A stretch of 56,298 bases of DNA from a virus (IMGVR_UViG_3300014911_000533:1-56298); one strand, 5' to 3'; positions 6,117 through 27,464 are shown, counted from the first letter of the stretch. A program made the numbers and translations. Notes: generated by a model not told the origin, from the letters alone.

Positions 6117-6377
6117 TCAATCAAATTCCTTTGTATCCAACCCACTCTCTATTCTTTGCAAAGCACGCCAGACAACCCTTTCCACCCAAGTATCATCGTA
6201 TCGGTGTCTCTGTGCTACCTCATCGATGACATCCCATCCAGTATCATTGCTACACAGAGCATACATTCCTTTTGTGGCACCTTTTTCCTTCACAAATGTG
6301 ATAAATTCTTCCCAATTCTTCCCAGCACACTCCACCGCTTCCCTGAGGAGTTTTATCTCTTCTCTAATGTGATTCAT
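6117..6377 (-). CDS. Hypothetical protein, 86 aa
   Basis: Small helical acidic protein rich in Trp and Glu, not recognised. AGGAG lies upstream of the ATG. Possibly a host-takeover factor, judged only by size and place. Confidence 0.55.
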   Translation of the reverse strand: MNHIREEIKLLREAVECAGKNWEEFITFVKEKGATKGMYALCSNDTGWDVIDEVAQRHRYDDTWVERVVWRALQRIESGLDTKEFD

Positions 6378-6402
6378 TTTTTATCCTCCTTTTCATTTTT
6401 CT

Positions 6403-6594
6403 TCATTTTTTCTCCAACTTCAAACCAAAATAATATTCACCAGTTCTTGCCACAATTAACTCATAGCCAATAGTACCAACCAACCTATCAAAGGTTTCAA
6501 GTAAACCATCAGTGTCATTAACTTCAGCTAACAAATATTCCTCAAATTTGTCCTGAAAACCCTTGCTGGCAGGATTTAAGCTGACTTCTTTCAT
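6403..6594 (-). CDS. Hypothetical protein, 63 aa
   Basis: Small acidic protein, not recognised; pattern suggests helix-helix-strand-strand. It starts immediately after the stop of the SprT-like gene, so translation is probably coupled. Confidence 0.5.
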   Translation of the reverse strand: MKEVSLNPASKGFQDKFEEYLLAEVNDTDGLLETFDRLVGTIGYELIVARTGEYYFGLKLEKK

Positions 6595-8815: not shown

Positions 8816-10085
8816 TGCTTCTCTCCCTTATCATCATTTTAGACCAATCAGCACTCACATTCACAGAACCATAGGAAGGATTGTGACGCTGATGTGCCAC
8901 AAAAATACGCATCTCACCTCTTTCTCTTTCCTCTTCAGTTTGACTCAGACTCAATACAATATCAGCTGAAGCCAACTTCGGGAAACTGTATGCTACATGT
9001 TCCAAATCCACTATGGATTTATTTTTAGCACTTCGTATGATTTGGCTGGCGGTCCAGACTGGTATTTTTCTTTTTACTGCTAAACCTCTTAGTTCAGCAT
9101 ATATTTGTTTTTGCTCTTGCCAATCAGCTTCATAATATCTACTACTCTTCAACTCGTCAGCATAATCCACAATAATTAAATCTGGCACAAAGTCACTGCC
9201 ACTCAGCATCTCTAAATGAGATTCTAAAGTTGCTACTGTGGCTGACTTGGTGGGATATTGTTTGATTATTAAATCACCTTTGAATAATTGGCAAATCCAC
9301 TTTAGCCTTTCAGCAACTTCTTTAGAATATTCAGATAAATTGCCAGTTCCATAACCACTGAGTGCACTGTCAAGCCTAATAGCTATATGACTCTCACTCA
9401 TTTCTAAAGTATAATAAACAACTTTCTTACCCTGGAAAATTGCACCTCTGGTCAACCAGATTAAGAATGCAGTTTTACCTCTACCTTTGAACCCTAATAC
9501 TACTCCTAATTCACCAGGTCCCAAACCTCCTCCAATTTTATCGTCCAGTCCTTTTATCATTGTTCTGATGCGTCCTGTGACTTCTGATTCGTGATTAGTT
9601 AGTCTTTTTTCAGGATTATCAAAATACTTGATACCAATATGTTCAAGGTTCTCTCCTACTCTAATTGCATCTCTTACCAGCTGTTCAATTTGCTCATATT
9701 TATCCTGCTCTAATAGTTTAGCTGATTCTAAAATGGCAGACTTCATAGCTTGATGTTTAGCAAATTTGATTAACAATTCACAAGTATATTTACTCTCTAC
9801 ATTATAATTGATGCTATAAATCTTGTCAATCTCTTTCTCATAAACTTCAAGGTCTAATTGTAAATCCTTATTAGCAACCTCTTCTTTTAACATTTCTGGC
9901 GTTGGTAATTGTCCATAACTATCAGTTAGATTCAAGATTAGCTTGCACAAATCTGAATGAACAATTTTTTCAAAATACTCTGGCTTTAGCACTTCTCTAA
10001 ATTGATAAATAAAATCTTTATTCCTTGCCATCATCGCCAATAAGTTTTCCTGAAAGTGTATGTTAAAATCGTATTTTGCACTCAT
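8805..10085 (-). CDS. Replicative DNA helicase, DnaB/T4 gp41 type
   Basis: About 426 residues from the ATG at 10085, which overlaps the upstream TAA as TAATG; an in-frame TTG seven codons earlier has no clear ribosome site. The N-terminal helical domain (1-130) is followed by the RecA-like hexameric core: Walker A GFKGRGKTAF, EMSESHIAIRL, Walker B LIIVDYADEL, the ASQI motif, and an arginine-finger segment near the end (VAHQRHN). The GLDDKIGGGL entry motif is typical of DnaB. It unwinds DNA for the primase encoded immediately downstream. Confidence 0.9.
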   Translation of the reverse strand: MSAKYDFNIHFQENLLAMMARNKDFIYQFREVLKPEYFEKIVHSDLCKLILNLTDSYGQLPTPEMLKEEVANKDLQLDLEVYEKEIDKIYSINYNVESKYTCELLIKFAKHQAMKSAILESAKLLEQDKYEQIEQLVRDAIRVGENLEHIGIKYFDNPEKRLTNHESEVTGRIRTMIKGLDDKIGGGLGPGELGVVLGFKGRGKTAFLIWLTRGAIFQGKKVVYYTLEMSESHIAIRLDSALSGYGTGNLSEYSKEVAERLKWICQLFKGDLIIKQYPTKSATVATLESHLEMLSGSDFVPDLIIVDYADELKSSRYYEADWQEQKQIYAELRGLAVKRKIPVWTASQIIRSAKNKSIVDLEHVAYSFPKLASADIVLSLSQTEEERERGEMRIFVAHQRHNPSYGSVNVSADWSKMMIRERSNES

Positions 10086-10684
10086 TATTTCAGCTGTTCT
10101 AACCAAGCAATCACAGCTTCTTTATTATTGTTTTTTAACATTTCTTTAACTAAATATGCAAATTCTTTTTCAGCCTTTTTGATTTTTTCAGCTTCTAATA
10201 ATGGTCTTTCTTCCAATAGCTTCTTTCTATTCTTTTTCACTTTCCATCTATCGTACCTGTCAATAGCAGCAACTTGTGTTAAACTCCTGGGAGTTGGAAT
10301 CGGAAATTTCTCCCAATTCTCCATTTCTTCAAACTGTGCAATAATGAATTCACGCATGTCATAGTGATTGTCTTTAATAATCTGGTAGGCTTTTTTAAAC
10401 CATTTCCAATTGACATTTTCTTTAGGTGATAATACCTTTCTCTTTTTATTCTTACCTCTACCAATAGTCACTGTCCTGGGATAAAATGTTTCATAAAACT
10501 TAATGCCTGTTTTCTCCCTACGCACTTGTTGATAAAACAGACCTAAATCAATTATTTTCAAATCCTCTTCTGAAAATCTATTAAATTTTACCCCTGGCAA
10601 TAAGGATTGTCTGTATTGAAGAGCGTAATTCTGAAGTGAGTTCTTCCTTAGCCTTGGCTTTCTACGAGGTCTTCTTTTAATCAT
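10085..10684 (-). CDS. Basic protein of replication module, possibly helicase loader or DNA-binding
   Basis: About 199 residues from ATG at 10684 (GGAG six bases upstream). The N-terminus is strongly basic (MIKRRPRRKPRLRK), the rest helical with many Lys/Arg and aromatic residues, ending with a Lys/Glu-rich helix. Not recognised. Its place between a UvsW-like helicase and the DnaB helicase, with a TAATG overlap to the latter, would suit a helicase loader or single-strand-binding accessory factor, but no AAA+ or OB motif is visible. Confidence 0.6.
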   Translation of the reverse strand: MIKRRPRRKPRLRKNSLQNYALQYRQSLLPGVKFNRFSEEDLKIIDLGLFYQQVRREKTGIKFYETFYPRTVTIGRGKNKKRKVLSPKENVNWKWFKKAYQIIKDNHYDMREFIIAQFEEMENWEKFPIPTPRSLTQVAAIDRYDRWKVKKNRKKLLEERPLLEAEKIKKAEKEFAYLVKEMLKNNNKEAVIAWLEQLK

Positions 10685-10730
10685 TACCCACTCCAATTAT
10701 TTTAAATTTGTTTATTGGCAATGATATCAA

Positions 10731-12116
10731 TTATTCTAAATGTCCCTTAATCATTACATCAAAACCCTCATTTTTATAATCCTTTATTCTTTTATTACTG
10801 TGTCTCCTTAAGTACACATTTGTATCATCATAAAAATCAGTAACATATAATATATTCTCACTATTTTGTTTTTTTCTTAAACCACGGCCAACTCTCTGAA
10901 CATTTTTAACATAACTTTTACCCCCTGCTGCTATTACTAAGTGCTGAATGTTTGGTACATCTATACCTTCATCTAAGATAACTGTACTAATCAGACATTT
11001 AATTTTACCTTTCTTAAATTCCTCAATTACTTTATTTCTAAAATCACTATTCTCTTGGCCACTAATAAATTCACAGTTAAAGCCAGAATTGAGAAACAGA
11101 TTTTCCAAAATTCTACCATGTTCCAGCAATTTCACAATAATTAAGGAGGGTTTATCAACTTCTTTACATCGTTCTAATATCAAATCATTTCTATATTTAT
11201 TTTCACAGATACCAATCCTATAAGCATCTTCATAGTTGAGATTCTCGATATCTACAGGCTCTCTAACTGGAATAATTATTATTTTTGGTTCAGCTGAATA
11301 ACCTTTTTCAATTAAATCCTGATTAGTTACACTATGGACAATTTCTCCAGTCATAGCTAATAACCGCCAATCTTTTACATCATTTTTTTGGAGAGGTGTA
11401 GCACTTAACCCAAATCTATAACTCGCTTTACATTTCATTGCTACTCTGTAAAATGTCTTGACCGAACTACCTAAATGATGACACTCGTCAATTATCAGTA
11501 CTTTAAAAGGTAACAAAAAATTCTTTAGATCTTTCCTATTATATAGACTCTGAACCATCGCTACAGTTATTCTTTTAATATCCTCAATTCCATCACCTAC
11601 TTTACCAACTTTAATGCCAAGTCTATCCTCAATTCTTTCAGCTGTCTGATACATCAGCTCCTTTCTGTGAGTTAACCAAATGGTAGGTAAACCTAAAACT
11701 TGAATAATGCCACAGCCCACTTCTGTCTTGCCTGCATTTGTGGCTTGAGCTATGATACCATTTCCTTTATTTAAAGCTGTCCAAATTGCTTCTTTTTGAT
11801 AATCTCTTAACTGGATATCCTTAAGATTCAGATAATGCCAATCCTCCTGAGGTAATCTGTAACGGAAGTCTTGAATCTGATAAGCTAACTTCTGAATCTC
11901 AAAAAACTTAGTAGCTCTTTCCAACAACCCTGTCGGAAAGCTATGCCAGCTCCTATTATAAAAATGAATTCTACCATCCCATTGTCCACTACGAAAAGCA
12001 TTTGAAAACCAATAACCATCTATCTTTTTGGCGAAGAAATTGTCAAGCAATTCGTCCACAACAAAGGAGCTACCCACTAAATAACTATATACATTCCTCA
12101 CTTTTATTGTTAGCAA
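10731..12116 (-). CDS. Superfamily 2 helicase, UvsW/Rad25-like
   Basis: 461 residues; TTG start at 12116 with AAGGAGGT nine bases before. The N-terminal 95 residues resemble the small T4 UvsW-type DNA-binding domain (FRSGQWDGRIHFYNR). Helicase motifs follow in order: Q-region LRDYQKEAI, motif I ATNAGKTEVG, motif II IIDECHHLG, motif III GLSATPLQ, motif V STVILDEGIDVPNI, and motif VI QRVGRGLRKK. UvsW-type enzymes unwind R-loops and branched DNA during phage recombination-dependent replication. It heads the replication block here. Confidence 0.88.
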   Translation of the reverse strand: MLTIKVRNVYSYLVGSSFVVDELLDNFFAKKIDGYWFSNAFRSGQWDGRIHFYNRSWHSFPTGLLERATKFFEIQKLAYQIQDFRYRLPQEDWHYLNLKDIQLRDYQKEAIWTALNKGNGIIAQATNAGKTEVGCGIIQVLGLPTIWLTHRKELMYQTAERIEDRLGIKVGKVGDGIEDIKRITVAMVQSLYNRKDLKNFLLPFKVLIIDECHHLGSSVKTFYRVAMKCKASYRFGLSATPLQKNDVKDWRLLAMTGEIVHSVTNQDLIEKGYSAEPKIIIIPVREPVDIENLNYEDAYRIGICENKYRNDLILERCKEVDKPSLIIVKLLEHGRILENLFLNSGFNCEFISGQENSDFRNKVIEEFKKGKIKCLISTVILDEGIDVPNIQHLVIAAGGKSYVKNVQRVGRGLRKKQNSENILYVTDFYDDTNVYLRRHSNKRIKDYKNEGFDVMIKGHLE

Positions 12117-12123
12117 AAATTAT

Positions 12124-12168
12124 CTACCTCCTTAAGTAAATAAACGCCAAATCTATTAAATCTTGCAT
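12124..12168 (-). other. 14-codon open frame overlapping a repeated motif and the helicase ribosome site
   Basis: ATG-initiated frame MQDLIDLAFIYLRR ending in the AGGAGGTAG that serves as Shine-Dalgarno for the helicase gene. It shares the DNA word AATAAACGCCAA (12139-12150) and the peptide pattern D-L-x-x-L-A-F-I with the frame at 3261-3392. It could be a leader peptide, a gene remnant or a coincidence. Confidence 0.25.
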
Positions 12169-12224
12169 AATTATTGAAAATTGTGTATGATTAAAGAGTC
12201 TGGAAAGGCACTATATGAATAAAT

Positions 12225-12614
12225 TCAACCGTTGTACTCAAAATGATAGGGATCTACCAATTCAAAATCTCCTCCCCATCTATTGTAAGGATCTAATTTT
12301 TTCCAGTATTCTCCAAGTTTTTCATAATGTATTTTTTCTTTCAGCCAGTTACCTTCCTTGTCTAATATAAAAATATCTATTGCTAACTTGTCCTGATGTT
12401 TGGAGTGTCTGGCTTTACTATAGCCCATATATCTATAAACATCCTGCAAATCAAAAATAAATTCTCTATTACAATGAGGACACTTGAATCTTAAATGTGC
12501 TGGTCTATAAACTTCTCCTATAGAAAAGTTGATATCATTCTTTATAGACCAGCACAATAACTTGGTGAGTAAATTTCTAAAGTGAATCTGTTTGCGACTA
12601 AGTCTCATCTCCAC
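12225..12614 (-). CDS. Endolysin-type M15 peptidase with CxxC insertion
   Basis: 129 residues. The M15/VanY zinc peptidase pattern is clear: RHSKHQDKLAIDIF (zinc His and Asp), LGEYWKKLDPYNRWGGDF, and a final DPYHFE with the third zinc His. These enzymes cut L-Ala-D-Glu or D-Ala-D-Ala linked peptides in peptidoglycan and serve as phage endolysins. A CPHC pair (about 45-48) and a short insert precede the catalytic part, probably a small extra metal knuckle. No signal peptide is present, so release should need a holin; a holin-like gene lies two genes upstream. Confidence 0.85.
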   Translation of the reverse strand: MEMRLSRKQIHFRNLLTKLLCWSIKNDINFSIGEVYRPAHLRFKCPHCNREFIFDLQDVYRYMGYSKARHSKHQDKLAIDIFILDKEGNWLKEKIHYEKLGEYWKKLDPYNRWGGDFELVDPYHFEYNG

Positions 12615-13090
12615 TCATAAGTGATAGCCAACCCAAATCTACCGCTGGTGTAATAATATAGAAGTTGGAATCTCGTATTTCTAAACTCTTCCAAAGTAAT
12701 CTTCTTCTGAAATTCAAAAGGTTTAGCATTCATAATTCCAATCGCATTGCCAGCTGGATTAGTAGACCAGATCCAGTTGATATTCTCACCTTCGACAATA
12801 TGAATGTAACCACCTAACTTGTATCCTTCAGTAATGGCAACATTGAAATTCCCGCTTTTCATTGCTTTTTCCAGCATAGGAGTAATTAAGTCTACTACCA
12901 CTCCCCACCAATCAGGAACAGAAATAGGATTCTGTTCAATTGATTCTGCAACTTGGTTGCTGGCTACCTCTAAAGAAATTACCTCTTCATCATCAACTTG
13001 CACAGCTACTACAGCAGTAGATAATCCCAAAACTAACACACAAGCCATCAGCAAAGCCAATAACTTCAGCAAGATTAATAACTTTTTCAT
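12605..13090 (-). CDS. Secreted protein of the lysis region
   Basis: 161 residues with a clear signal peptide: MKK, a long Leu/Ala core, and a probable cleavage near VVAVQ (about 30). The mature part is acidic at first, then beta-strand-rich with aromatic residues and a YTSGRFGLAITYEWR end that looks like a final outer strand. Not recognised. Between the holin-like gene and the endolysin (10-base overlap), a role in envelope disruption is possible, for example spanin-like, but there is no lipobox. Confidence 0.55.
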   Translation of the reverse strand: MKKLLILLKLLALLMACVLVLGLSTAVVAVQVDDEEVISLEVASNQVAESIEQNPISVPDWWGVVVDLITPMLEKAMKSGNFNVAITEGYKLGGYIHIVEGENINWIWSTNPAGNAIGIMNAKPFEFQKKITLEEFRNTRFQLLYYYTSGRFGLAITYEWR

Positions 13091-13104
13091 CTGGCTAACC
13101 TCCT

Positions 13105-13386
13105 TTATTTTTTCTTCTTCTTACTTAAAGCACACTTAGCTACTTCATTGGTCAGCTCTTTAGCAACCTTACTCTCAGGGTTCAAACCTTCAGCCTGTAA
13201 TCCCTTAATAATCAGATCAATCACAGCATCAACATTGTCAGGAGTTACTTCCTTAACATCAGTTAGAATTTTTACAATCACATTCCTGTACTTCTTCTTC
13301 GGGTCAATTTTGTAAGCTGACAGCAATAAAGTGATTAAAACTACAATAGGGTAAGTTAACTTTAAAATTAAATCAAGATAATCCAT
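13105..13386 (-). CDS. Holin-like single-span membrane protein
   Basis: 93 residues: one hydrophobic segment near the N-terminus (about 9-27: KLTYPIVVLITLLLSAYKI), then a soluble helical part and a Lys-rich tail (SKKKKK). This topology fits class III-like holins or tail-anchored lysis regulators. It is placed three genes before the endolysin product in a compact set. A phage membrane protein of other function is possible. Confidence 0.5.
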   Translation of the reverse strand: MDYLDLILKLTYPIVVLITLLLSAYKIDPKKKYRNVIVKILTDVKEVTPDNVDAVIDLIIKGLQAEGLNPESKVAKELTNEVAKCALSKKKKK

Positions 13387-13400
13387 TGTATCTCACCTCC

Positions 13401-14045
13401 TTAAACATATCTTACAAATCTTGTTTTGTATACTTCTGTAATTTCATCCTCAATCCCTTCTGCTTTCATTTCCTCAAATAACTGATAGAAATATTCATCA
13501 ACGGACTTACCTATTGTTTTCAGTGATGCTTTTCTTACCGCACTTTTTACCTTAGCCTGAATCAACGGCAGAGGAAATTTCTTCTCCTTTTTATGGCAGG
13601 TTGGTAGCCTTTTCGTAAATTCTTGAAATTTTTCTGGAGTAAATACTTTGTCATTCTGAGGCTCAATAAGTAAAACATTAAGTCCCTCAGCTAAGATGAT
13701 ACTGTTGTAGCTATGAACCCTTGAATCTGTAATTATAAAATGCCACTTGTTTTTAATGATTGATTTGGCAGTTAAGACCAAAGAGAAATCATCACAATCA
13801 AACCAATCTTTTCTATATTTGAATTTATCAGTTTCATCTTCTTTTAGAAATTGAATTACTTGACTCCTAACAGGTAGCCAATAGTTCTCATCTGCTAAGT
13901 AGAGAAAAGTAGTATTTCCAAAAACTCTTTTCAGTACTTTTTCAATAGTTTGCCAATTTTGAACACTGGCTCCAGGTTTTTTAACCAAAAGTGCACCAAA
14001 GAATAAAAAAACAAACCACCAGATGAAATTTTTAATCTTGCTCAT
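13401..14045 (-). CDS. Membrane-anchored Cys-Asp-Asp (transglutaminase-like) domain protein
   Basis: About 214 residues from the ATG at 14045, chosen because AGGAGG lies nine bases upstream; the longer frame to 14075 has none. An N-terminal hydrophobic helix (KNFIWWFVFLFFGALLV) is a signal anchor. The soluble domain has YRKDWFDCDDFSLVL, then HSYNSII and IEPQND. Cys, His and Asp/Asn in this order resemble papain/transglutaminase-like phage proteins, some of which bind or cleave cell-wall peptides. The 5' end overlaps the gene above by 14 bases. Catalytic function is not proven. Confidence 0.5.
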   Translation of the reverse strand: MSKIKNFIWWFVFLFFGALLVKKPGASVQNWQTIEKVLKRVFGNTTFLYLADENYWLPVRSQVIQFLKEDETDKFKYRKDWFDCDDFSLVLTAKSIIKNKWHFIITDSRVHSYNSIILAEGLNVLLIEPQNDKVFTPEKFQEFTKRLPTCHKKEKKFPLPLIQAKVKSAVRKASLKTIGKSVDEYFYQLFEEMKAEGIEDEITEVYKTRFVRYV

Positions 14046-14598
14046 CCTTATCAACCTCCTCTTCAGATGCACCATGAGCTGTGCATCCTTCTTTTAAATT
14101 TGTCGCTCCTTTTTCTTGTAAACTCTGCAAATAAGACTTAGAAAGTTCAAATGCAGGAGGATAAAAGTGTTTGAAATTTTTAAATTCTCTCAATAATTTC
14201 TTCATCACTATAATAGCATCCATCATTGTCCAGTGAGTATCAATTAGTCTACGGAGTGTCAATGAAAGGACTTTAACTTCATGTGACTTAATAGTCATCT
14301 GATTCCAATTGAATGCTAACAGACTAAATTCTATCGACAAATCTTTCAGAATTGGAACTATAGGATGTGTAATAACTATATTAATTAATAAATTTAATAT
14401 TCTCCTAACCAAAGTCTCTTTATCCTCAGCATTAATGCTTTTACCATCCAAAACATCATCAATATCATTCTTCATAGTACAAACTGAAGATTTAATTTGT
14501 TGTAAATTATTCTGTCCAAATAGTTTTAACAAATCCTGCTTGTAAGTTAATATTTTCTCGAGTTTACCAACATTTTTCCTATAAAGTTCTACTGACAT
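14032..14598 (-). CDS. Hypothetical helical protein downstream of radical SAM genes
   Basis: 188 residues, almost all helical with hydrophobic heptads (LLNLLINIVITHPIVPIL) and an acidic C-terminal tail (EGCTAHGASEEEVDKDEQD) holding one of its two cysteines. Not recognised. It starts at the stop of the second radical SAM gene, so it may belong to that set as a partner or chaperone; alternatively it begins the lysis block with which it overlaps. Both options are inference from position. Confidence 0.5.
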   Translation of the reverse strand: MSVELYRKNVGKLEKILTYKQDLLKLFGQNNLQQIKSSVCTMKNDIDDVLDGKSINAEDKETLVRRILNLLINIVITHPIVPILKDLSIEFSLLAFNWNQMTIKSHEVKVLSLTLRRLIDTHWTMMDAIIVMKKLLREFKNFKHFYPPAFELSKSYLQSLQEKGATNLKEGCTAHGASEEEVDKDEQD

Positions 14599-15924
14599 CT
14601 ATTCCTCCATTATTTTTTCTATAAATCGAAATGACATAGCTTTTCGCTCATCAATGTAATTAAGTATGGTTTTATACATATTGACTTTTTTGAAACCTTT
14701 AATCATTGCCATTACTTTAGCGTGAAACAATTTACAGACCGTAGGAATCGGAGAAAACATATCTCCAGTCACTTCCAACATTGAGCCCAAACATTGTGCT
14801 TGGCATAAATATTTAATAGCACACACCTCACACTGAGGCTGAGAATAATAATGAAAAGTTTTAGTGCCAATTAATAGTTCAGGATTTACTGCTTCAATTC
14901 CAACGATTCTATTATTGTCCACTATGAATTTAGCTAATGTATTCTGTGGGTAGCTGATACGATGACAAGGAACAATTGCTAAATCTCCCATTCTGATATA
15001 AAGACAGGACTGGAGTGAACAGCCTATTCCTCTTCCAGTATTAGTCAATGGAGCTGATAGAATATTATAGCCTTTAAGGGTGAACAAAAATTTCATAAAT
15101 TTCTTCGGATCACTTTTGCAAGGGTGTTTGAAAGTCCATTCAATTAAGAACTCAATAAATTTCATATATTCTTTAATCTGCCAGTCTGTCCATTCTACAT
15201 TTCTAACTTCTAACAAATAAATATTAAAAAAAGGCAAATCATATTTCCTGAAATATGATTGAAACCATAAAAAGTTATCTATCCAATTTTCAATCAGCTC
15301 AGAATATATCATCGGGTGGAAACCAAATTTATGTTTTACAGCAAATTTGAAGCACTTATCATAGTATTCGTCGTCTCTATTATCAATGCCAATTTTTAAC
15401 GGTCGATTTCTTTCACAATATTTTCCATCAAAGCTTGCACTTAAAGCTAATCTAATTCCAATCTTTTTACTTTTTTCAATCAGCCTTTCTACTTTTTCAG
15501 TTAGTTTATCATTTAGAATAAAAGTAAAATTCGTTGGAACGCAAATCATCATTGGCTTCTTCTCAGCACTTGCGAACTTATCAAGAATTAAATCTAAAGC
15601 ATCAAAACCAAGCTTCTGCACAAAAGGTTCTCCGCTGAAAAAATCTATCTTTGGAGCCATCCCATTCTCGATCCACCAATTGCACAGCAATTCTAAATTC
15701 TGCATAATTCTATCATAGTTGATAATCTTTGAAGGATATAGTTGCTCACCAAAGTGAGTATGATAACAATATTTGCACTTTAAGTTGCACTTTGAAGATA
15801 AATAAATTTCAGCCCTTGAAAAATTCTGTAAGTTTATATTTGTAGGTTCTTTCCATGCCTTGAAATATGTGCTTTCAAGAAATGAACTTACCAATTGATT
15901 ATTTTCTTGCTGAAATGTTAACAT
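14599..15924 (-). CDS. Radical SAM/SPASM-like maturase 2
   Basis: 441 residues. The radical SAM cluster motif is CNLKCKYC (about 52-59), followed by FFSGEPF (the GGEP equivalent) and a TIM-barrel core. The C-terminal part has a dense cysteine array (CSLQSC; C in VPCHRIS; CEVCAIKYLCQAQC; a late C in PTVCKLF) matching SPASM auxiliary-cluster domains used by peptide-modifying enzymes. It overlaps the other radical SAM gene by 26 bases, and both follow two tetrapeptide-repeat genes. By analogy with known two-enzyme repeat-protein systems I infer that it modifies those repeats or another virion protein; the reaction is unknown. Confidence 0.85.
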   Translation of the reverse strand: MLTFQQENNQLVSSFLESTYFKAWKEPTNINLQNFSRAEIYLSSKCNLKCKYCYHTHFGEQLYPSKIINYDRIMQNLELLCNWWIENGMAPKIDFFSGEPFVQKLGFDALDLILDKFASAEKKPMMICVPTNFTFILNDKLTEKVERLIEKSKKIGIRLALSASFDGKYCERNRPLKIGIDNRDDEYYDKCFKFAVKHKFGFHPMIYSELIENWIDNFLWFQSYFRKYDLPFFNIYLLEVRNVEWTDWQIKEYMKFIEFLIEWTFKHPCKSDPKKFMKFLFTLKGYNILSAPLTNTGRGIGCSLQSCLYIRMGDLAIVPCHRISYPQNTLAKFIVDNNRIVGIEAVNPELLIGTKTFHYYSQPQCEVCAIKYLCQAQCLGSMLEVTGDMFSPIPTVCKLFHAKVMAMIKGFKKVNMYKTILNYIDERKAMSFRFIEKIMEE

Positions 15925-17230
15925 CTTTCAGAATCTCCTGAAATGCACCATTTGCAAATAACCTAATCATGCTGACTGGAGTAAAATGGATGCAGCCCGT
16001 ATTTAACAAATTCTCAGTTGGACAAGAACATGCAGTATTGATGAACAAAGAAAATAGGATGCACAAATCATTATTAGTTAAGTATACCTTATCAGCCTGA
16101 CCACAGAGTGCGAGTTCTTTCAGCATTGCAACCACATAACTATTCTTCAATTTAGTGAAATCATGATAATTTCTCAATATATACTTCCATCGTAAAGTAT
16201 TATGTGGATCATCGACATTCACAATATATCTATTTCGGATAAAATCAATTTTCTTACCTTCAAACAGAGAGACGTCCCAATTGTCAATATCTTTTTGTGT
16301 GAGAATACTGTTCAGATATTCATCACAATTTAGATAAAATGTTCTGTGACAAATATGCAGGTCATCATCTATTCCCACACCAGAATTACTATCACCACCT
16401 GAACAGGTAAACATGGCAGGATTTACATTTAGCCTGTCCCAGTGGTCAAATACCTTTTTAAATCTGAAACAGTAAGTATTTGGATATTTCATTTCACGCA
16501 GATTTTTGAAGAATGTAGCCAATTGCTTCCCGTCTTCACTTGTGTATTTTCCTGGAACAACTAAAGTTGGTGAACAAGTGTTTCTGAAACTGACTTGTCT
16601 TTGCTTGTTAATTGCTTTGAATCGAGCCTGCATATCTTTAAAGTATTCAAAATACTGCTTGATTTTGTTTTTATCCTTATTCAATAATCTAATATTTTCT
16701 TTCGAGAAAGTTGATTTCACTTTAAACTCAACAGTTAGTTCATTCAAACTAACTGCATTCAACTCTTTTAATAGAGAGCAAAAGTTAGAAAGTATTTTCT
16801 CACTTGCGCCTTTCATACGGTTTTTATCAGTAATAAAGCTTGGACCATCTACAGAAATTTGGATCTTAAGTTTCAGTTTTTTATTGGTATTGGATAGCTG
16901 CTTAACAAAGTCGACTAATATGTTTGTATTGGTAAGCAAGTTTGTCGAAAAACTAATTTCTTTCAAGTTGGGAAAACTCTGAAGACATCCAATTATGAAA
17001 TCCGTAGATTGCAGCAATGATAGAGTTGGCTCAGTACCCCAAAGTCCAAGGTATTCCAAATTACTTCTATAAATTGTAGCAAGGTTTCCAAAGTAATAAT
17101 CTTTTCTCAGTTTTGTGACAATCTTGTTGTGGAGCTTAACCATTTCTTTACTTTTTGGTATATAACAATATTTGCAGTTCAAATTGCAGTAACCTGAAGT
17201 CAAAACTTCTACAGCTTTCATTCTGTCCAT
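15899..17230 (-). CDS. Radical SAM maturase 1
   Basis: 443 residues. The 4Fe-4S motif CNLNCKYCYIP is at about 15-25, followed by LWGTEPTLS in place of GGEP and the strand ISVDGPS. The C-terminal half has further cysteines (FTCSGGD, HICHRTFYLNCDEY, TACSCPTENLLNTGC) that could hold auxiliary clusters, although the spacing is not textbook SPASM. It starts 8 bases after the 131-residue repeat protein gene and ends inside the start of the second radical SAM gene. The pair should be made together. A peptide or protein substrate is inferred from neighbourhood. Confidence 0.82.
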   Translation of the reverse strand: MDRMKAVEVLTSGYCNLNCKYCYIPKSKEMVKLHNKIVTKLRKDYYFGNLATIYRSNLEYLGLWGTEPTLSLLQSTDFIIGCLQSFPNLKEISFSTNLLTNTNILVDFVKQLSNTNKKLKLKIQISVDGPSFITDKNRMKGASEKILSNFCSLLKELNAVSLNELTVEFKVKSTFSKENIRLLNKDKNKIKQYFEYFKDMQARFKAINKQRQVSFRNTCSPTLVVPGKYTSEDGKQLATFFKNLREMKYPNTYCFRFKKVFDHWDRLNVNPAMFTCSGGDSNSGVGIDDDLHICHRTFYLNCDEYLNSILTQKDIDNWDVSLFEGKKIDFIRNRYIVNVDDPHNTLRWKYILRNYHDFTKLKNSYVVAMLKELALCGQADKVYLTNNDLCILFSLFINTACSCPTENLLNTGCIHFTPVSMIRLFANGAFQEILKDVNISARK

Positions 17231-17238
17231 CTTAGCCC

Positions 17239-17634
17239 CTATAAAGAACTATCGTGTATTCCATCATATCCACTATCGTAAACGCCATCATACCCAATAT
17301 CATGACCGCTATCAACATCACCATCTTCTCCTAAATTATAACCACTTTCGTGAGTAGCATAGTAAGACCCCTTGTCATCAACATCCACCGTAACATCATC
17401 ACCGATGTCATAAGTACCTTCGTCAGCAGTGTCATATGTACCATGTTCATTGTTATAAATTGTACTATCAAATGCAGAATCTATTCCATTATCGTAATCA
17501 GCGTTGTAGGTACCCTTGTCAGTTACACACGCTTCGTTGTCTTTGATATAGTCAATATTCGTGCGTATCTCATCTATCGCTGATTTTATATGGACCGAAC
17601 CAACCCCAATATCTTCTGTCCAAGAAAAAGCCAT
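17239..17634 (-). CDS. Tetrapeptide-repeat tail protein B (23 repeats)
   Basis: 131 residues. The N-terminal module (1-35, MAFSWTEDIGVG then IDEIRTNIDYI) matches a motif repeated in the neighbouring protein. Right after Cys36 come 23 uninterrupted four-residue units (37-128), such as GTYN ADYD NGID SAFD and IGYD GVYD SGYD GIHD, then SSL. Position 3 of a unit is mostly Tyr, Phe, Ile, Val or Asp; position 4 mostly Asp, Asn or Glu. Composition is extremely acidic and Tyr/Gly/Ser rich, with almost no Lys. Such regularity suggests a solenoid or extended fibre. It lies between a fibre gene and two radical SAM genes, which may modify it. Confidence 0.75.
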   Translation of the reverse strand: MAFSWTEDIGVGSVHIKSAIDEIRTNIDYIKDNEACVTDKGTYNADYDNGIDSAFDSTIYNNEHGTYDTADEGTYDIGDDVTVDVDDKGSYYATHESGYNLGEDGDVDSGHDIGYDGVYDSGYDGIHDSSL

Positions 17635-17644
17635 TTAATCTCCT

Positions 17645-18139
17645 TTAATAAACATTAGCTTCAAACCCACTATTATAATCACCATTATCTCCTGAATTCG
17701 CTCCAATGTCGTCTGAGGCATCATATCCAGCATCATCAGTTGAGTAATCCGATCCATAGTCAAGAGAATCATAGCCTGATACTGCAGTTGCATCTTCACT
17801 GCTATCAAAAGAACTATCATAACTTAAATCATAACTTGAGTCATAACCTATATTATCTCCATTATCAACCCCAGTATTGATATCATTATCAATTGTCGAA
17901 TCATATGTAGCATCATGCTGTCGGCAGTAATTCATATCGTCTGCATAATCAACTTTATTACGTATCTCTACAAACTGAGCACTCTTTATAAAGTCGCCAG
18001 CATTAACAGGCAGATTAGTCCAAGAAGGTGCACCTAATAACAAATCAGAATATACTATTTCAATATTCGTTTGTATCTCGTCAATAATGTCATCAAGTTC
18101 AATATCACCCACTAAAATTGAAGTCCAAGAAAATCCCAT
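17645..18139 (-). CDS. Tetrapeptide-repeat tail protein A (23 repeats)
   Basis: 164 residues. The N-terminal part contains two copies of a roughly 35-residue module (FSWTSILVGDI...DEIQTNIEIV and PSWTNLPVNAGD...EIRNKVDYA). After Cys72 there are 23 in-register tetrads to the last residue (73-164): RQHD ATYD STID, then IGYD SSYD LSYD SSFD and so on. The paralog at 17239-17634 has the same repeat count after the equivalent Cys, so length seems constrained. It resembles the repetitive ends of clostridial phage tail fibres in style only. Probably a virion-surface protein; a substrate role for the adjacent radical SAM enzymes is inferred. Confidence 0.75.
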   Translation of the reverse strand: MGFSWTSILVGDIELDDIIDEIQTNIEIVYSDLLLGAPSWTNLPVNAGDFIKSAQFVEIRNKVDYADDMNYCRQHDATYDSTIDNDINTGVDNGDNIGYDSSYDLSYDSSFDSSEDATAVSGYDSLDYGSDYSTDDAGYDASDDIGANSGDNGDYNSGFEANVY

Positions 18140-19201
18140 TTATCTCACCATCACCAATGCCCAAATTCTTTTTTTCTGTTTAGGCAATAAATCCTCAAGT
18201 GCTTTAGCTACAACCGCTCCAATAGGATTCCCTCTCATGGCATAGCCTTTTATATTACTTGTAGTTAACAAATCACCAACTGTCACAGGACCAATTGTCT
18301 TAACTTTAACCCTACCAGAGATAGCCACTGGCACATAGCCTTTCTCAATAGCTTTCTCAATTGATTTTTCATTTTCTCCTCCAAGACAGTACCCAAAAGT
18401 ATCAGAATAAACACCAACCACCCTTTTGTCCCCAATAATATCAGTTCTTCCTACTCTACCATTTTCCCAGATTAATACATCACCAGGTTTTAAAGACTCA
18501 CTTGCTGGCATTAATTCTGCAAGATCATTATAAACAGCTCTCCATACTTTAGCAGAATCATCAATAATGGTATAAGAAGTGCCGCCAGAATCATTTTTAA
18601 TCAGCAATTTACCAGAAGCAAGTTCTATTTGAGCGGTAATCATTGGTGCTCCTGAATGGCCTTCGGCAAGTGCTGTAAAGTTGTCTTGATTCTGAGTCAT
18701 TTTTGTTGAAGTTAATAGTGAGCCAGAAGGATAAGTCAAATCTGTCCAAGTACCTCTAATAAATCTTGGTCCAAGTTTATAGCTGAGTTCAAGATAGCAA
18801 TCAGGACAGACAATAGGCATCCTATTCGTACCCAACTCTGACAAAGAAGGCAAATATATCCAGCCAGGATAGCCAATACCATAGATCTTCTCCTTGTGCT
18901 TCTTTCCACATCTTGAACACCTGACTATTCGAGGCTCTCTAACTGTTATCTTATTGCTTATTTTCTTTAGACAATCTGGACAAACTTCAGGAGCTTTGCC
19001 TTCAATATCTAAACTGATCGGGAGAATTGCCCATCCAAAGAAGCCTTCATTCGGATATGACTCTTTGACGTGCTTTTTACAGAAATGACAATCTGCTGTG
19101 CGGAGATATTCATTATTCCATCTTAATGGTCTTACTTTATGTTTAACTTTCCACTTTTGCCATTTTTCTTTAATTAAACTTTCAATTGTTTGTTTGTTCA
19201 T
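18140..19201 (-). CDS. Tail fibre-like protein with two zinc modules
   Basis: 353 residues. The N-terminal 140 residues hold two homologous zinc modules, each CxxC then CPDC: C38/C41 with C74/C77, and C95/C98 with C132/C135, both with a shared Gly-Trp (GWAILP, GWIYLP). Next is a segment with WTDLTYPSGSLLTSTKMTQNQ typical of phage fibre trimer regions, and a C-terminal domain (PVAISGRVKVKT, VTVGDLLTTS, PIGAVVAKALED) seen at the ends of many tail fibres. It lies between the tailspike gene and the repeat proteins, so it is probably part of the adsorption apparatus. Confidence 0.65.
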   Translation of the reverse strand: MNKQTIESLIKEKWQKWKVKHKVRPLRWNNEYLRTADCHFCKKHVKESYPNEGFFGWAILPISLDIEGKAPEVCPDCLKKISNKITVREPRIVRCSRCGKKHKEKIYGIGYPGWIYLPSLSELGTNRMPIVCPDCYLELSYKLGPRFIRGTWTDLTYPSGSLLTSTKMTQNQDNFTALAEGHSGAPMITAQIELASGKLLIKNDSGGTSYTIIDDSAKVWRAVYNDLAELMPASESLKPGDVLIWENGRVGRTDIIGDKRVVGVYSDTFGYCLGGENEKSIEKAIEKGYVPVAISGRVKVKTIGPVTVGDLLTTSNIKGYAMRGNPIGAVVAKALEDLLPKQKKRIWALVMVR

Positions 19202-19246
19202 TATTAAATACTCCTTCTAATTTAAAATGTTTATTCCTGTTAATAT

Positions 19247-20959
19247 TTATAAACTCAATAGCTTCCGCAATGGAAACTCATATCCTGTTGCTTGTGAATC
19301 CGCTTCATAAAACCAGAGTGCACCCCAAGAAAAATCTTTTGAATAAGCACGAGCTCTATCCATTGATACCAACAAGTATCTTGTTTCACCCTGTCGATAA
19401 TAAGGGATAATCATTGGATGAGGATGTCGATGACCTGTTTTAACATTTATGGTTATATTAGAAACAGAAGTAAGATTAGGATAATCCCAATAACCAAAAT
19501 TATCACTATTATTGGAAACAACATAATATGTGCCATTGACTTTCACAATTTTTGTTCCTTCCGCCTCTGTTGCCAAGGAGCTACTTGCAACAGCAGACCA
19601 GCTTGTAAAATCTCCTGTACTTTCTGCAACAGCTACTGTTCCTATTCCTTTAATATATGCAATACGCCATTTTTCCACACTATCATCATAAATAACAAAT
19701 GGGTCATAGACATGTACAGTACCTGTTCCTGGTAGTGAACAAGAAGAGCTCAGAAGATAATGAATTCCGGTTAATAAATTTTCTCTGGCTTCACTATATT
19801 CAACAGTACAATATGTGTTATCGCCTAACCGTTGCGCTCCCCAAGTAGACCAAAACACATACCACTTTTCTGCATCTTGGTCAAAAAATATATGAGAAGC
19901 ATGGTCTGGACGAGTCTTGCCATTACTATTCTCTCTAAATAACAAAGACTCAAGACAGATATCATAAGAGCGCGGATTAAAGCTGATAATCCCTTGGCAA
20001 GAAGTTCTTATACTCCATCCTGCCAGAGTAACTCCTAAAAAAATTCTTCCATTTTGTATAAGGGGAGCTCCGTCTTTCCATGTAATCACAGTAGGATCAC
20101 GCATGCCCAATGGAGTAAACTGATAGATAGTAAAGTTATTGAATGTACACGAATTAGTATCAGCCAAACGGTAACCGAAACCAATATCCCAATCATCTCT
20201 TACTGCCGGATCTAACAAGTCAATCTCAGTCCAGCTATGTGTGCCAACAAAGTGCCAATCTTTATTGTTCTCTCGTGTAAAGATTGCAATGTCATTCCCA
20301 GCCATCAAAACTCCCAGCTCATAAGGTGGAGTTGGTATTGCTGCTTCAATCGTAGTAGCAGCTCCAGTTCCACCAAACATTTCATATACTTCTACTCTAC
20401 TTTGAACCTTATTCACAACTATAACTATGTAATTATTCACATCTTTGTCAATACAAATCATCACATTACGAGAACCCGATGTACCAGAAATGGATTCCAC
20501 ATCCAATTTTATAAATTGGAATGGATGCTGTCCTGTCCCTCTAACTAAAAAATGTTCTTCACTATCTGCCCCTGTTGAATTCGTGATTGTTAATTGTCCA
20601 TCATTAATAGATTTAGTAGAAGCAGATCCTGTAGTTACAATCGATTTGAAATAATTTGTATTAGTTGAATCAAATAAATTAGCTCTAAAATTCGACCTGT
20701 GCTGAATTCTATCATCAATAAGACGGAGTATTTCACGACTAACATTCATAGTATTGAAAGTAAGAGAGCCAATATCAGTACCTCCACTAAGAGACTGGGT
20801 GACTTCTGAATACAAATAATATTTTCCTTTAAATAATGACACATTGTCAGCAGAGTGAAAGTTAAAGTCCAAGTCAGCACGAAGTTTACCACCATCTCTC
20901 AGATCCTTATGGTGTGCATTTGAATCTTTTATGTGAGCTTGTAAGTCTATTAATGCCAT
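19247..20959 (-). CDS. Tailspike/receptor-binding protein with GH43-like beta-propeller
   Basis: 570 residues. The N-terminal part (1-85) looks like a virion-binding helix-rich region, then a jelly-roll-like domain (about 90-280, with DKDVNNYIVIVVNKVQSRVEVY). From about 285 it shows repeated blade motifs of a five-bladed propeller: MRDPTVITWKDG, HIFFDQDAEKWYVFWSTWG, VYDPFVIYDDSVEKWRIAY, EGTKIVKVNGTYYVVSN. Asp at the first two blade starts and Glu in EGTKI match the catalytic pattern of GH43/GH32-like glycosidases. It follows the tail tip gene, as expected for a tailspike that digests a host surface glycan. Enzyme activity is inferred. Confidence 0.7.
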   Translation of the reverse strand: MALIDLQAHIKDSNAHHKDLRDGGKLRADLDFNFHSADNVSLFKGKYYLYSEVTQSLSGGTDIGSLTFNTMNVSREILRLIDDRIQHRSNFRANLFDSTNTNYFKSIVTTGSASTKSINDGQLTITNSTGADSEEHFLVRGTGQHPFQFIKLDVESISGTSGSRNVMICIDKDVNNYIVIVVNKVQSRVEVYEMFGGTGAATTIEAAIPTPPYELGVLMAGNDIAIFTRENNKDWHFVGTHSWTEIDLLDPAVRDDWDIGFGYRLADTNSCTFNNFTIYQFTPLGMRDPTVITWKDGAPLIQNGRIFLGVTLAGWSIRTSCQGIISFNPRSYDICLESLLFRENSNGKTRPDHASHIFFDQDAEKWYVFWSTWGAQRLGDNTYCTVEYSEARENLLTGIHYLLSSSCSLPGTGTVHVYDPFVIYDDSVEKWRIAYIKGIGTVAVAESTGDFTSWSAVASSSLATEAEGTKIVKVNGTYYVVSNNSDNFGYWDYPNLTSVSNITINVKTGHRHPHPMIIPYYRQGETRYLLVSMDRARAYSKDFSWGALWFYEADSQATGYEFPLRKLLSL

Positions 20960-20968
20960 TTCTACCTC

Positions 20969-22603
20969 TCAATATAATGGATTATAGTCTTGGTCCAAAA
21001 GTCCATAATATGCATCATCCAGCCAAAAAGCAACTAAAGCCTCATCACTAATTTCTCTTGCTTTAAATTTAACCAAACCTGTTCTCAAATCTATCGATTC
21101 AATTTCTTCAACTCTTGCTGGATTTGTGTTCAAACCTTTTAAATCTTCAGTTACAGTAATATCATCACCCAACTGGAGTAAATAACCTACCATTGTTGCT
21201 GTGATGCTTAAGACTTCTAAAGGCTGTTTGTTCTTATCAACTACCCTATCAGCGTAACTTTTAGCACTTCCTGAGGTGCTGTGCCAAACTACTTTATTTT
21301 CAATTATCTTTTCTTTTATTCCATAGTTTGATTGGCTTGTAGCATCTTCTGCGGTATAGCTACCAGTAAAATCATCTGAATCTGGATCGTAGCCATAATA
21401 ACACACAGCCTTGTTTATCAAGTTACCTTTGTCCAAAGAAGCATCAATTTGAATACAGTTGCTTCTATTAAAATCAATTAATTCTCCTGGTGCATATGGA
21501 GGTATTGGTCGCTTAAAATGAAACTTACCGTCTCCATCTACCCAGATATAACTATTAGTTAACTCTGCAATCATAGACAAAGCAGTTTTAATTGTGTGTC
21601 CGGTAAATCTGGCTTTCAATCTGAAACTCAAAGTGTCACAATCTTCCTTCCACTGAGACCAGCTACTATAGTCAATATCTTCATTGTAAATACTGGTCGT
21701 TGGATCTAATTTCCCCTGATTTACTAAAATATCCCAAACCAAATCAGCAGGATTCCAATCACTACTATAATAATCCATAGGACTTTGGCCACTTCCAAGT
21801 TCTTTTTCCAACATAGGGAGCATTCTATCTTTTATGTGCAAAGATATTTTAGCTCCACTGTGATAAACACTTTCAACAGTGCCAGTAAATACATCCATAT
21901 ATTCGTCACTACCCACAAACTGAAGTCGCAATTTGCCCAGCTTACCCAAGTTCGTTTTATCTTCTAAGAAAATATTCCAATCTTTATTTATGTTACTCAA
22001 TTCTATCGATGCGAATCCAGAAGTAATTTCAGTGCTTCGTGAAATCTGTGAAATACCAATTAGCAAATCTTCTCCAGCCCTCTTTAAAGAGATATCATCA
22101 AAATAAACTTGTCCAGAGGTTTCATTCGCCAATTCAAAATAAACCCAGTTATCCTCAACGGTTGGCTCACCTGAAGCTTCTGAATATTCCCAATCTGTAT
22201 TTGCTTCAATGATTTTAGCTTCTGCCCAATAATCATCTACCGGATTGTAAACTCTTGCATAAGCTGCTCCTGTAGTCCTTTCAGGAAAATATATCCAAGC
22301 ACTGACTAAATGTGGCTTATTGGTTTCCAGAGTTACTTTCTGATAACCTCCAAACCCTCTTCTGTCGTTAATCTGAGTTGCCAATTTAGCTGCATAATAA
22401 TCACTATGATAAACATAATCTTCTTTATACAAATCCCTAACTGTATCCAAAATATTCCATTCATTCCACTGGTCCAATAAATTACCTGTCCATTCTTCCA
22501 AACCCCCATCCACAACTAACTCATCCCCAAAAAGAAACCTGATAAAAGGTTTATTTACTTTAGCTTCTAAGTTGTTTCTAAAACTGTCAGATACTGATTG
22601 CAC
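20969..22603 (-). CDS. Tail tip/baseplate hub protein with inserted carbohydrate-binding-like domain
   Basis: 544 residues; GTG start at 22603 in a TAGTG overlap with GGGAGG upstream. The hub-like core (about 178-544) contains SAMIAEL-type and SYIWVDGDGKFHFKRP segments typical of tail hub proteins. Near the N-terminus, residues 30-175 form an insertion starting VVDGGLEEWTG and ending VYFDDISLKR, the beginning and end pattern of CBM4/9/16-like jelly rolls. This could bind host polysaccharide before the spike acts. Position right after the distal tail gene supports a tip role. Exact family is uncertain. Confidence 0.65.
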   Translation of the reverse strand: MQSVSDSFRNNLEAKVNKPFIRFLFGDELVVDGGLEEWTGNLLDQWNEWNILDTVRDLYKEDYVYHSDYYAAKLATQINDRRGFGGYQKVTLETNKPHLVSAWIYFPERTTGAAYARVYNPVDDYWAEAKIIEANTDWEYSEASGEPTVEDNWVYFELANETSGQVYFDDISLKRAGEDLLIGISQISRSTEITSGFASIELSNINKDWNIFLEDKTNLGKLGKLRLQFVGSDEYMDVFTGTVESVYHSGAKISLHIKDRMLPMLEKELGSGQSPMDYYSSDWNPADLVWDILVNQGKLDPTTSIYNEDIDYSSWSQWKEDCDTLSFRLKARFTGHTIKTALSMIAELTNSYIWVDGDGKFHFKRPIPPYAPGELIDFNRSNCIQIDASLDKGNLINKAVCYYGYDPDSDDFTGSYTAEDATSQSNYGIKEKIIENKVVWHSTSGSAKSYADRVVDKNKQPLEVLSITATMVGYLLQLGDDITVTEDLKGLNTNPARVEEIESIDLRTGLVKFKAREISDEALVAFWLDDAYYGLLDQDYNPLY

Positions 22604-22971
22604 TAAGAAACCTCCCTTAGTATCAGTTCACCTTCGAAGTAAGTTTCCCAACCAGGGTCAAACATTGCTTGCAACGGTCTTTCTTCATTGATAATCCTAA
22701 CACTGATGCTATCTGTAGGATCATATTTTAAATCTGGATAAAAAGTTAACTTCGTTAAATTCTGCCACCAGCCCACAAATATGTCTCTATCGTCTCTACT
22801 TATCTTTGTTACAGGTACAACATACTTCCTTTTATTGCCCCATTCGTAGATATAAAGTTCACCATCTAAAGTTTTGTGAGCAGTTCTCGGTCTATCTTCA
22901 GGTACTTCAAAGCCTTTAGCAGGAGAAAATTCTATTGAAGTAACTCCATCAGTTAATTTCATTACTCTCAT
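22603..22971 (-). CDS. Putative distal tail protein, small
   Basis: 122 residues, beta-rich (GELYIYEWGNKRKYVVPV; WWQNLTKLTFYPD; TYFEGELILREVS). It occupies the place of the distal tail (Dit-like) gene, directly after the tape measure with an ATGA overlap and before the hub gene. It would form the ring joining tube and tip. The family is inferred from position and size rather than motif. Confidence 0.5.
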   Translation of the reverse strand: MRVMKLTDGVTSIEFSPAKGFEVPEDRPRTAHKTLDGELYIYEWGNKRKYVVPVTKISRDDRDIFVGWWQNLTKLTFYPDLKYDPTDSISVRIINEERPLQAMFDPGWETYFEGELILREVS

Positions 22972-25900
22972 CTTGCCACCAGCTCTCCAACTAAGTCTGA
23001 GGATAAAATACCAGATCTTGCAGCATCTTTAATAGCAGGGATAAATTTTAGCCTAAATATGCGATTTATCTTGCTCTGGTCCAAATTCTCTAAATCAACA
23101 TTTGGCAATTCTATAGTTACATTAATATCACCAAATCTTATAATGTTACCAGCTCTCCCTCCAATCAATTTGACTGGCACTGCTCCTCCTTCTAAAGGAA
23201 TAATTGCTTCTGGTCTTCCTCCTTCTCCAACCAATCCTAAAGTTGGTTTAGTTACTATTGCTCCTCCTTGTGCTTCTAAAGGTTCAAATCCTCCTTTTGC
23301 CATTCCTCCTTTTTCAAAGCCAATAATCCCTGCTACGAGCCTGCCAATTCCTGCAACTACTGCTCCAGCTGCTGCCAGACCTAAAATCGGACCTACAAAA
23401 GGAATTCCTGCAAAAGCTGCATATGCTGCAGCTGCTGCTTTAGCTGTAAACAAAGCTATTTCTTTCATAACAGTGAAGACAGTTTTAGCCAACATAACTC
23501 CCATACCCCACAGATACTTAGCAACTATTGCTAAAATAGACTTCTCTTCCACTTTCTGTCTGGTTTTTGCACCTGCAATTGTAGCAAGAGTCATCATTAC
23601 TTGTTTAGCTATCCATTCACTTGCCATTTCAGCAACACTGCGGTAAAAAGATGTTTTAATTTCTTCCCAAATCCTATTTGTAAAATCTTCCCAAGTACTC
23701 AATCCTCTCATCCATTCTTCAACTACAGGCACAAATCTACCTTTCATATCCTCATAGAATCCTGCAAACATCTCTCTCCAGGTAATAGTACTTTCGAGAA
23801 TTTCGTCCGTAACTTCCCCAAGAGCAGTCTTTACTGGTGCAACTATTTTCTCCCACTCATAGAATTTTTTGTAAAACTTACTTACACTGCCTCTGGCTCT
23901 GTCCATTGCTTCAATTAAAGAATCTGTTGCTACAATCGTTGTACTAATTCCATATGCAGGTGCCTCTGGAAATTTACGAGACATTAAATCGTACATCTCA
24001 CCCCAAGATTGTCTCGCTCCTTCCATCCAGTAAATAAATTCAGAGCCTTTTGTGCTAATATCGGACAAGCCATAAGCTGGTGCTTCAGGAAACTTCCTGA
24101 AGAAAAGATTATAAAACTCCTGCCATGCTAACCGTGATTTTTCAATATAAGTAGCAAAATCTTTAGCCAATTCAATGAGCGTTGAAATTCCATACGCAGG
24201 AGCTTCTGGGAATTTGCGGGATAAAACATCGTAAAATTCTTTCCAAGCCATTCTTGCCTTCTCAATATGTACAGCGAAATCCTTAGACTTCTCTGTAATA
24301 TCTGGAATACCGTATGCAGGAGGCTCAGGAAACTTTCTGGACATAAGATTATACATCTCCTGATATTCTTGCCTTGCTCCTTCGATATATACAGCAAAGT
24401 CTTTGGATAATTCTATGATATTTGAAATACCATATGCTGGAGGTTCAGGAAACTTACGAGATAGGATATTATAGAACTCTTGCCAACCTAATCTCGCACT
24501 TTCTACCCAAATAGCAAAATCTTTAAGTTTCTCTGTAACATCTGAGATACCATAAGCTGGAGATTCGGGAAACTTTCTGGACATAAGGTCGTACATTTCT
24601 TGATATTTTCCTCTTGCTTCTTCAATATACATAGCAAAGTCCTTAGCCAAAGCCATAGTTGTGCTAAAACCATAAGCTGGAGCATCAGGGAATTTACGAG
24701 ACATTAGGTCATACATTTCTTGATATGCCAGCCTTGCTTTTTCAATATAACCAGCGAAGTCTTTAGACAGAAGTATAAGTCCAGCAAGCCCATAAGCTGG
24801 AGTTTCTGGAAATTTACGAAGTAATAGTTCATAAAACATCTGCCATTCTACTCTCGATTCTTCCACCCATTCAGCAAGTTCTAATCCTATTATTGATTCT
24901 ATATTCTCGTCTAATTTCACAAGTTCTTTATTCAAATTGCTCAATTCTCTCTTAAATTTTCCAGATTCTTCTGCTCCTTGACCAAATTCATCAGCAAGCT
25001 GACTTGTGCTACTGGCAGCATCTAAAGCTGACCTTGAAGTTTCATTTATATTTTTTTCAACTTCTTCTAAGCGATTTTCAAGAATTGTAAAAGCTCTATC
25101 AACACTTACTCCCACCATTTTAGGTAACTTTTCAGTTACTGGCTTGAAGCCTTCTAATAAAGGAGTCCAATCGGGAGGTTCAATCTTCTTAAACCAGTTT
25201 TTAGGATTTAATTTCTTTATTACCCAGCCGACCCAAGATGTAATATTTTTGCCTAAATTAGTAAAAACAGTTAGCACTGCCTTACCAGCATCAATAAATA
25301 TATTTGGGAAATTACTTATAAACCAATCAATAAAATTCCCAATATTGATACCAACTGATTTAAAACTTTCAATTATTATTCTACCAAACCATTCAATATA
25401 TGCACCCGCTTTCTGAACAGACTTTCTAAAAGTTTCACTTCTTTGATATAACAAATACAAACCAGCAGCTGCTACAGTAAGTCCCAGTATAATCCACCCA
25501 CCAGGCCCCATTCCAGCAAAAGCTGCCATCAATGCTGGACCTAACTTTGATAAAACTGAAATAAAGAAACCTATTGCTCCCACAGTTTTCATTATTGTAG
25601 GAGCCATCATTAATAAAGGTCCTCCAACTGCTAATAACCCTCCCAATACCATAGCAAATTTAACAAGTGCTGAAGTAATTTTAGGATGAGCTTTCGTCCA
25701 TTCTCCAATACTTCTAACTATATCCTTTATGTTTTTAATCATAGGAGTTAAAGTGGGCAATAGCACATCACCAAGGACTAATTGTACTTCTTCAACTGCT
25801 GATTTCAATAACTTTAAAGTGCCTTGCCATGTGTTAATTTGTCTTTCTGACATCTCAGCAGCTTTATTCGTCCCTGTAATTCTATTTTCAAGTTCTTTAA

Positions 25901-27453: not shown

Positions 27454-27464
27454 TATTCTCTCCT

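Follow-up and report, generated by a model that had tools for sequence, protein, structure and literature searches.

Radical-SAM peptide maturation is familiar from the natural-product and cofactor pathways of cells. TvgB modifies a TVGG tetrapeptide array and generates cyclopropylglycine at Val (PMC9062424), and PapB links Cys to Asp or Glu (PMC9413430). CXXX-repeat peptide maturase (TIGR04115) is likewise a radical-SAM enzyme with a four-residue repeat target, and the His-Xaa-Ser system (HxsB/HxsC) combines two radical-SAM enzymes with a repeat protein, as does the locus considered here. Among short-repeat proteins, pentapeptide repeat proteins place four repeats on each coil of a square solenoid (PMC8145042). 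In this study, a phage locus encoding two tetrapeptide-repeat proteins (A and B), two radical-SAM enzymes (RS1 and RS2) and a third partner (C) was compared with its relatives and with these systems. The cassette is conserved and widespread and apparently applies radical-SAM maturation to virion proteins, which would be a new virus assembly chemistry. A literature search of partial coverage turned up no account of a phage system of this kind.

Phage contig and organization of the cassette

The window, i.e., the whole stretch of DNA that was analyzed, is a 56,298-base contig (C2) within a 1.74-Mb bin. Its gene content marks it as a tailed phage: a tape measure gene (22968-26834, E 1e-102), matches to a head maturation protease and head proteins, genes for a DnaB helicase and a primase, and a sugar-modification cluster. 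The cassette (Table 1) lies after the tape measure gene and fibre-type genes, and the genes next beyond it are read as lysis genes on the basis of sequence motifs only. The coordinates that the first-pass annotation gave for A and B are exact, and so are the Cys followed by 23 units that it noted in both A and B and its close packing of the enzyme genes: RS1 starts 8 bases past B and overlaps RS2 by 26 bases. Protein C was not named there.

Table 1. Genes of the cassette and its flank in the window
Feature	Length (aa)	Coordinates	Strand	Characteristics
Flanking tail-fibre-type protein		18140..19201	-	Homologue directly upstream of A in L162, L190 and L227; after tape measure gene
Tetrad protein A	164	17645..18139	-	N-terminal domain, C72, 23 tetrapeptides to C-terminus
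Tetrad protein B	131	17239..17634	-	N-terminal motif, C36, 23 tetrapeptides + SSL
RS1, radical SAM enzyme	443	15899..17230	-	CX3CX2C at C15/C19/C22
RS2, radical SAM/SPASM enzyme	441	14599..15924	-	CX3CX2C at C46/C50/C53
C, third cassette protein	188	14032..14598	-	All-helical; conserved WN(x)N motif

The N-terminal domain of A contains two W...E[IV][QR]..[ID][DE]-type motifs, and the N-terminal region of B contains one W...EIR..ID motif. This common motif and the gene position, rather than membership of a known tail family, suggest that A and B are tail proteins; no relevant Pfam match was obtained for 25 tetrad proteins. By phmmer, A has homologues in L227 (3e-41), L162, L211, L190 and L160, and B in L162 (1.6e-22), L227, L211, L190 and L160.

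Regarding the host, no convincing CRISPR-spacer-like match to positions 8000-27900 was found among 147 related genomes, and archaeal S28e is absent from the window's bin. The metagenome-assembled genomes (MAGs) holding cassette relatives include both archaea and bacteria, and one MAG contig groups with an IMG/VR record; this spread and grouping suggest that the MAG contigs are binned viral contigs. Elsewhere in the window, a glycosyltransferase family 2 domain is fused to a further radical-SAM domain (40385-42049) in the sugar cluster, which also holds three nucleotide-sugar epimerase genes.

Distribution and gene orders

Single-sequence searches of IMG/VR with RS1 or RS2 found nothing. When the radical-SAM motif CN[LF]xCKYCY was scanned for as a DNA pattern, 99 IMG/VR stretches were obtained, in which phmmer detected homologues of A, B, RS1 and RS2 together. 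Scans built on alignments brought in a further 29 and 39 loci from IMG/VR, along with a few close contigs from GTDB. Grouped by common enzyme sequence, the cassette (A, B, RS1, RS2 and C) is represented by 47 groups including the window; two distant members beyond these were picked up through their arrays, namely L212 and the L313/L230/L277 contig. The common gene order is A-B-RS1-RS2-C. A and B lie between the enzymes in L274, L290, L296 and L300 (RS1-C-A-B-RS2-C), and L263, L298 and L278 have the order RS1-RS2-C-A-B. Conservation in 47 groups through three gene orders means that the association survives rearrangement. The survey allowed for recoding (TAG in L301, L316, L228 and L313; TGA in L272 and L279), for truncated contigs (L279 and L324) and for L213 and L307 being two loci on one contig. 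The cassette thus also occurs in phages that apparently decode a stop codon as sense, and their enzymes are full length only with readthrough.

At least one tetrad array was found by score in 41 of the 46 contigs with enough flanking sequence. Two short tetrad proteins were recognised by eye in L316, and triplets take the place of tetrads in L314 (S/D-H-S units in a neighbouring protein, 5659-6423); NFG-like triplets occur in L228. In the divergent L307 and L328, RS1 and RS2 are present and no repeat protein was found nearby; searching the entire L307 record with profiles yielded none either. Arrays occurred in 2/163 control loci, both of which proved to be distant family members; these controls came from the radical-SAM scans, nearly all via other radical-SAM genes, and represent the sequence neighbourhood of the enzymes, not a random sample of genomes. 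The first-pass annotation had proposed that the enzyme pair belongs with the tetrad proteins and had named beforehand the outcome that would speak against this, namely a pair occurring mostly without them. That outcome was not found in the relatives, and the arrays of the 41 contigs, together with their absence from unrelated radical-SAM loci, bear out the proposal.

Several further loci were encountered in this survey. L314 contains divergent RS1/RS2 and three more radical-SAM genes. L328 (4734-9063) is a Peptococcaceae contig, a candidate prophage, in which a gene on the opposite strand separates RS1 from RS2 and phage-like tail genes come next. Group 1 glycosyltransferase genes lie 3' of the cassette in L249 (7918-8901), L299 (7789-9186) and L247 (7341-8492). 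Most hits of a DNA scan for pure YD tetrads were simple repeats lacking the cassette, which means that composition by itself does not identify it; other viral YD-tetrad proteins (GAYDGSYD type; ten CPYD units) occur in L077, L109, L110, L112, L114, L130 and L136 and in L023, L035 and L086, with no radical-SAM gene found in those stretches. The cassette was not found in GenBank phage records, where convincing matches were limited to Campylobacter phage radical-SAM genes (about 24% identity) and gut ‘phage’ scaffolds carrying cellular genes, and no plasmid matched it. In one gut scaffold labelled phage and carrying cellular genes (L149, 615-3777), two radical-SAM genes flank short ORFs.

Tetrapeptide arrays

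The array of A runs from RQHD to ANVY, and that of B from VTDK to GIHD. Scored with a position matrix built solely from the arrays of other phages, the window being left out, A reached 106.9 (shuffle maximum 42.0) and B 109.6 (shuffle maximum 39.9), each against 20,000 shuffles of the same residues. Of the periods from 2 to 8, only period 4 carries power for the small residues in both arrays, a signal matched in 0/20,000 shuffles. The tetrad arrays of the window are not due to chance. The first-pass annotation called the units unbroken, which is right for the phase and too strict for the residues: H, E and A also occur at position 3, and position 4 is D, N or E in 19/23 units of A and 18/23 of B, the remainder being Y, K, H or V. 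Neither array contains Cys. In an AlphaFold2 (AF2) prediction of B, a helix spans residues 17-37, the array has pLDDT <50 and the bare array is unfolded; this is weak evidence because the repeat alignment is poor, and the low confidence may come from that thin, badly aligned input rather than from a need for modification.

Across the family, the unit is small-small-[Y/V/H/D/E/N]-[D/N/Y/H/K/C/R]. Positions 1 and 2 are S, G, T or A in 70% and 78% of units, position 4 is almost never a small residue, and Cys accounts for about 5% of position 4. The “Tyr-Asp” modification site suggested earlier is therefore too narrow, and because the residues at positions 3 and 4 vary, no single cross-link rule would hold for all units. 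Array sequence is strongly variable. The preceding Cys sets the array phase in 57 of 58 arrays, and the phase runs on uninterrupted for as many as 103 units.

A superperiod, not described in the first-pass annotation, overlies the tetrad. Units are alike at lags 2, 4, 6 and 8 and unlike at lags 1, 3, 5 and 7, the best lag over all positions being 4, i.e., 16 residues (z +9.9); Val at position 3 gives z -5.9, +3.4 and +5.2 at lags 1, 2 and 4. This 8/16-residue signal is family-wide, the two arrays of the window alone being too short to show it clearly. Recent DNA duplication is not its main cause, since the similarity of synonymous codons is barely raised at lag 4 (0.489 vs 0.457) and shows no excess at lag 2. 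By analogy with the four repeats per coil of pentapeptide repeat proteins (PMC8145042), a 16-residue coil is plausible.

Array length ranges from about 9 to 103 units in A and B. Within a phage, the unit numbers of A and B correlate (Spearman 0.73 for 29 pairs; 0.62 without arrays above 60 units), suggesting that the two proteins work side by side. The equal repeat number noted in the window does not extend beyond a minority: counted from the anchor Cys, the numbers are identical in only 4 of the 29 pairs, although the lengths correlate. Unit-by-unit pairing of A with B arrays gave no clear signal.

Radical-SAM enzymes and the third partner

The CX3CX2C motif is invariant across all RS1 and RS2 sequences aligned. 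PF04055 matches the window enzymes with E 3.5e-6 and 3.4e-5, slightly under Pfam's cut-off, and 9/12 RS2 proteins at E <0.001; by motif and domain match, both enzymes belong to the radical SAM superfamily. RS2 has seven invariant Cys (C302, C320, C365, C368, C374, C378 and C397) with SPASM-like spacing, which form the complete set for two auxiliary clusters, and TIGR04085 matches 10/12 RS2 proteins. RS1 has only three extra invariant Cys (C276, C294 and C403), implying a SPASM-like or reduced auxiliary-cluster set. Both clades are monophyletic (RS1, 37/37, support 0.997; RS2, 38/38, support 1.0). The nearest NCBIfam models are the PapB, GrrM/OscB, YhhB, AmcB, QhpD and SCIFF maturases, all scoring far below their curated cut-offs; the PapB model matched 13/13 RS1 and 12/12 RS2 proteins and was the best or near-best match, and most of the matches are to maturases that form cyclophanes or thioethers. 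For RS1 there is also a likeness to sulfatase maturases, and no epimerase-named model is among the matches listed for either enzyme. Solved relatives by profile are the radical-SAM proteins ChlB, 5wgg/8vpo and SkfB; 5wgg is CteB. Judged by sequence, RS1 and RS2 are thus two uncharacterised maturase clades near peptide-crosslinking maturases. The likeness to SPASM-type peptide-modifying enzymes noticed at first holds, since the seven-Cys set of RS2 is complete and both enzymes are nearest to peptide maturases.

The AlphaFold model of C is all-helical (pLDDT 82), with no match to a solved structure below E 0.001. In phages whose enzyme genes lie apart, C is duplicated, beside RS1 and beside RS2, which suggests one C per enzyme.

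Proposed function and alternatives

The cassette is probably a phage maturation system for a tail appendage, in which RS1 and RS2, together with C, repeatedly modify the arrays of A and B and turn them into stiff rods. A and B would be tail-tip or fibre proteins, each consisting of a short N-terminal domain and a long small-small-X-X array; the N-terminal domain probably attaches to the tail and is recognised by the enzymes in the manner of a RiPP leader peptide. C may serve as a docking or chaperone subunit of RS1 and RS2, and the enzymes would modify their putative substrates unit after unit. Cross-linking is the first choice because the nearest named enzymes cross-link, the likeliest chemistry being radical cross-links through side chains at positions 3 and 4, namely the aromatic ones and those of Asp/Asn. 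Once modified, the arrays would become rigid rods and probably coil into solenoids, each turn taking up four tetrads (16 residues), and the similarly long A and B would lie side by side. It is conceivable, although only as a tentative elaboration, that the two enzymes staple a tetrapeptide polymer tail fibre, one acting on odd and the other on even units, to give a rod of 16 residues per turn; such a covalent stapled rod would be a new covalent solenoid fold. To our knowledge, this would be the first radical-SAM chemistry in virion structure.

In the alternative that survives best, and which we nevertheless regard as unlikely, A and B are the substrates of RS1 and RS2, but the chemistry would be epimerization or another single-residue modification (D-residues, cyclopropylglycine or oxidation) instead of cross-linking, and the alternation would arise because each enzyme takes every other unit. 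Small residues at positions 1 and 2, the alternation of Val at position 3, the formation of cyclopropylglycine at Val by TvgB (PMC9062424) and the likeness of RS1 to sulfatase maturases would fit such chemistry; however, the nearest named maturases are mainly cross-linkers, and the lack of epimerase-named models among the matches listed argues against epimerization. It is very improbable that the two enzymes have their target in some other protein of the tail or the host, with the tetrad proteins being mere neighbours, an ordinary receptor-binding pair with low-complexity tails. Strong sequence variation of the arrays and the presence of the enzymes without detected arrays in L307 and L328 are compatible with this, but the near-constant co-occurrence through three gene orders, the position of A and B between RS1 and RS2 in four loci and the absence of arrays from unrelated radical-SAM loci oppose it. 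About as improbable is the reading of the arrays as mainly Ser/Thr-rich glycosylation scaffolds with the radical-SAM enzymes acting on sugars or a sugar pathway, which draws on the large sugar cluster of the window with its three epimerases and glycosyltransferase-radical SAM fusion and on the glycosyltransferase genes beyond the cassette in L249, L299 and L247. Against it, the likeness of RS1 and RS2 is to SPASM-type peptide maturases, and the cassette does not regularly include glycosyltransferases.

If the arrays are matured by RS1 and RS2, the system would be a possible source of stiff genetically encoded polymers, and the two maturase clades would come with repeat substrates that are long and easy to assay. 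A concrete structural prediction follows from the 16-residue superperiod.

Comparison with known systems

Identity with the His-Xaa-Ser system was rejected because neither the sequence models nor the repeat fit: the HxsB model TIGR03978 matched neither window enzyme at E 0.001, with distant matches in some relatives, and HxS tripeptide repeats are absent from the window and most relatives, triplets of this kind occurring only in L314. The phage unit instead has a period of four and lies in a phage tail locus. The PapB model (NF047865) has a cut-off of 340 bits, against which RS2 scored 57.1 and RS1 41.7 bits, and the Cys/Asp pairs of the PapB substrate are lacking in the phage arrays, which are almost without Cys. 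Similarly, the TIGR04115 scores of 24.4 and 20 bits lie below its cut-off of 350, and the phage unit is not Cys-based. Pentapeptide repeat proteins, which form a quadrilateral beta-helix (PMC8145042), share short in-phase units and a four-unit superperiod with the phage arrays, whereas the phage unit has four residues and no regular Leu/Phe core position.

TvgA/TvgB is similar in that a radical-SAM enzyme acts on copies of a tetrapeptide repeat (PMC9062424), and TvgB is a tested precedent for the modification proposed in the phage. That system uses one enzyme in a cellular gene cluster and near-identical TVGG units to make a poly-cyclopropylglycine RiPP, whereas the phage cassette has two enzymes and C, and its two arrays are long and variable and belong to tail-locus proteins. 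The probable chemical rework of tail repeats would be a new way to build a part of a virus particle.
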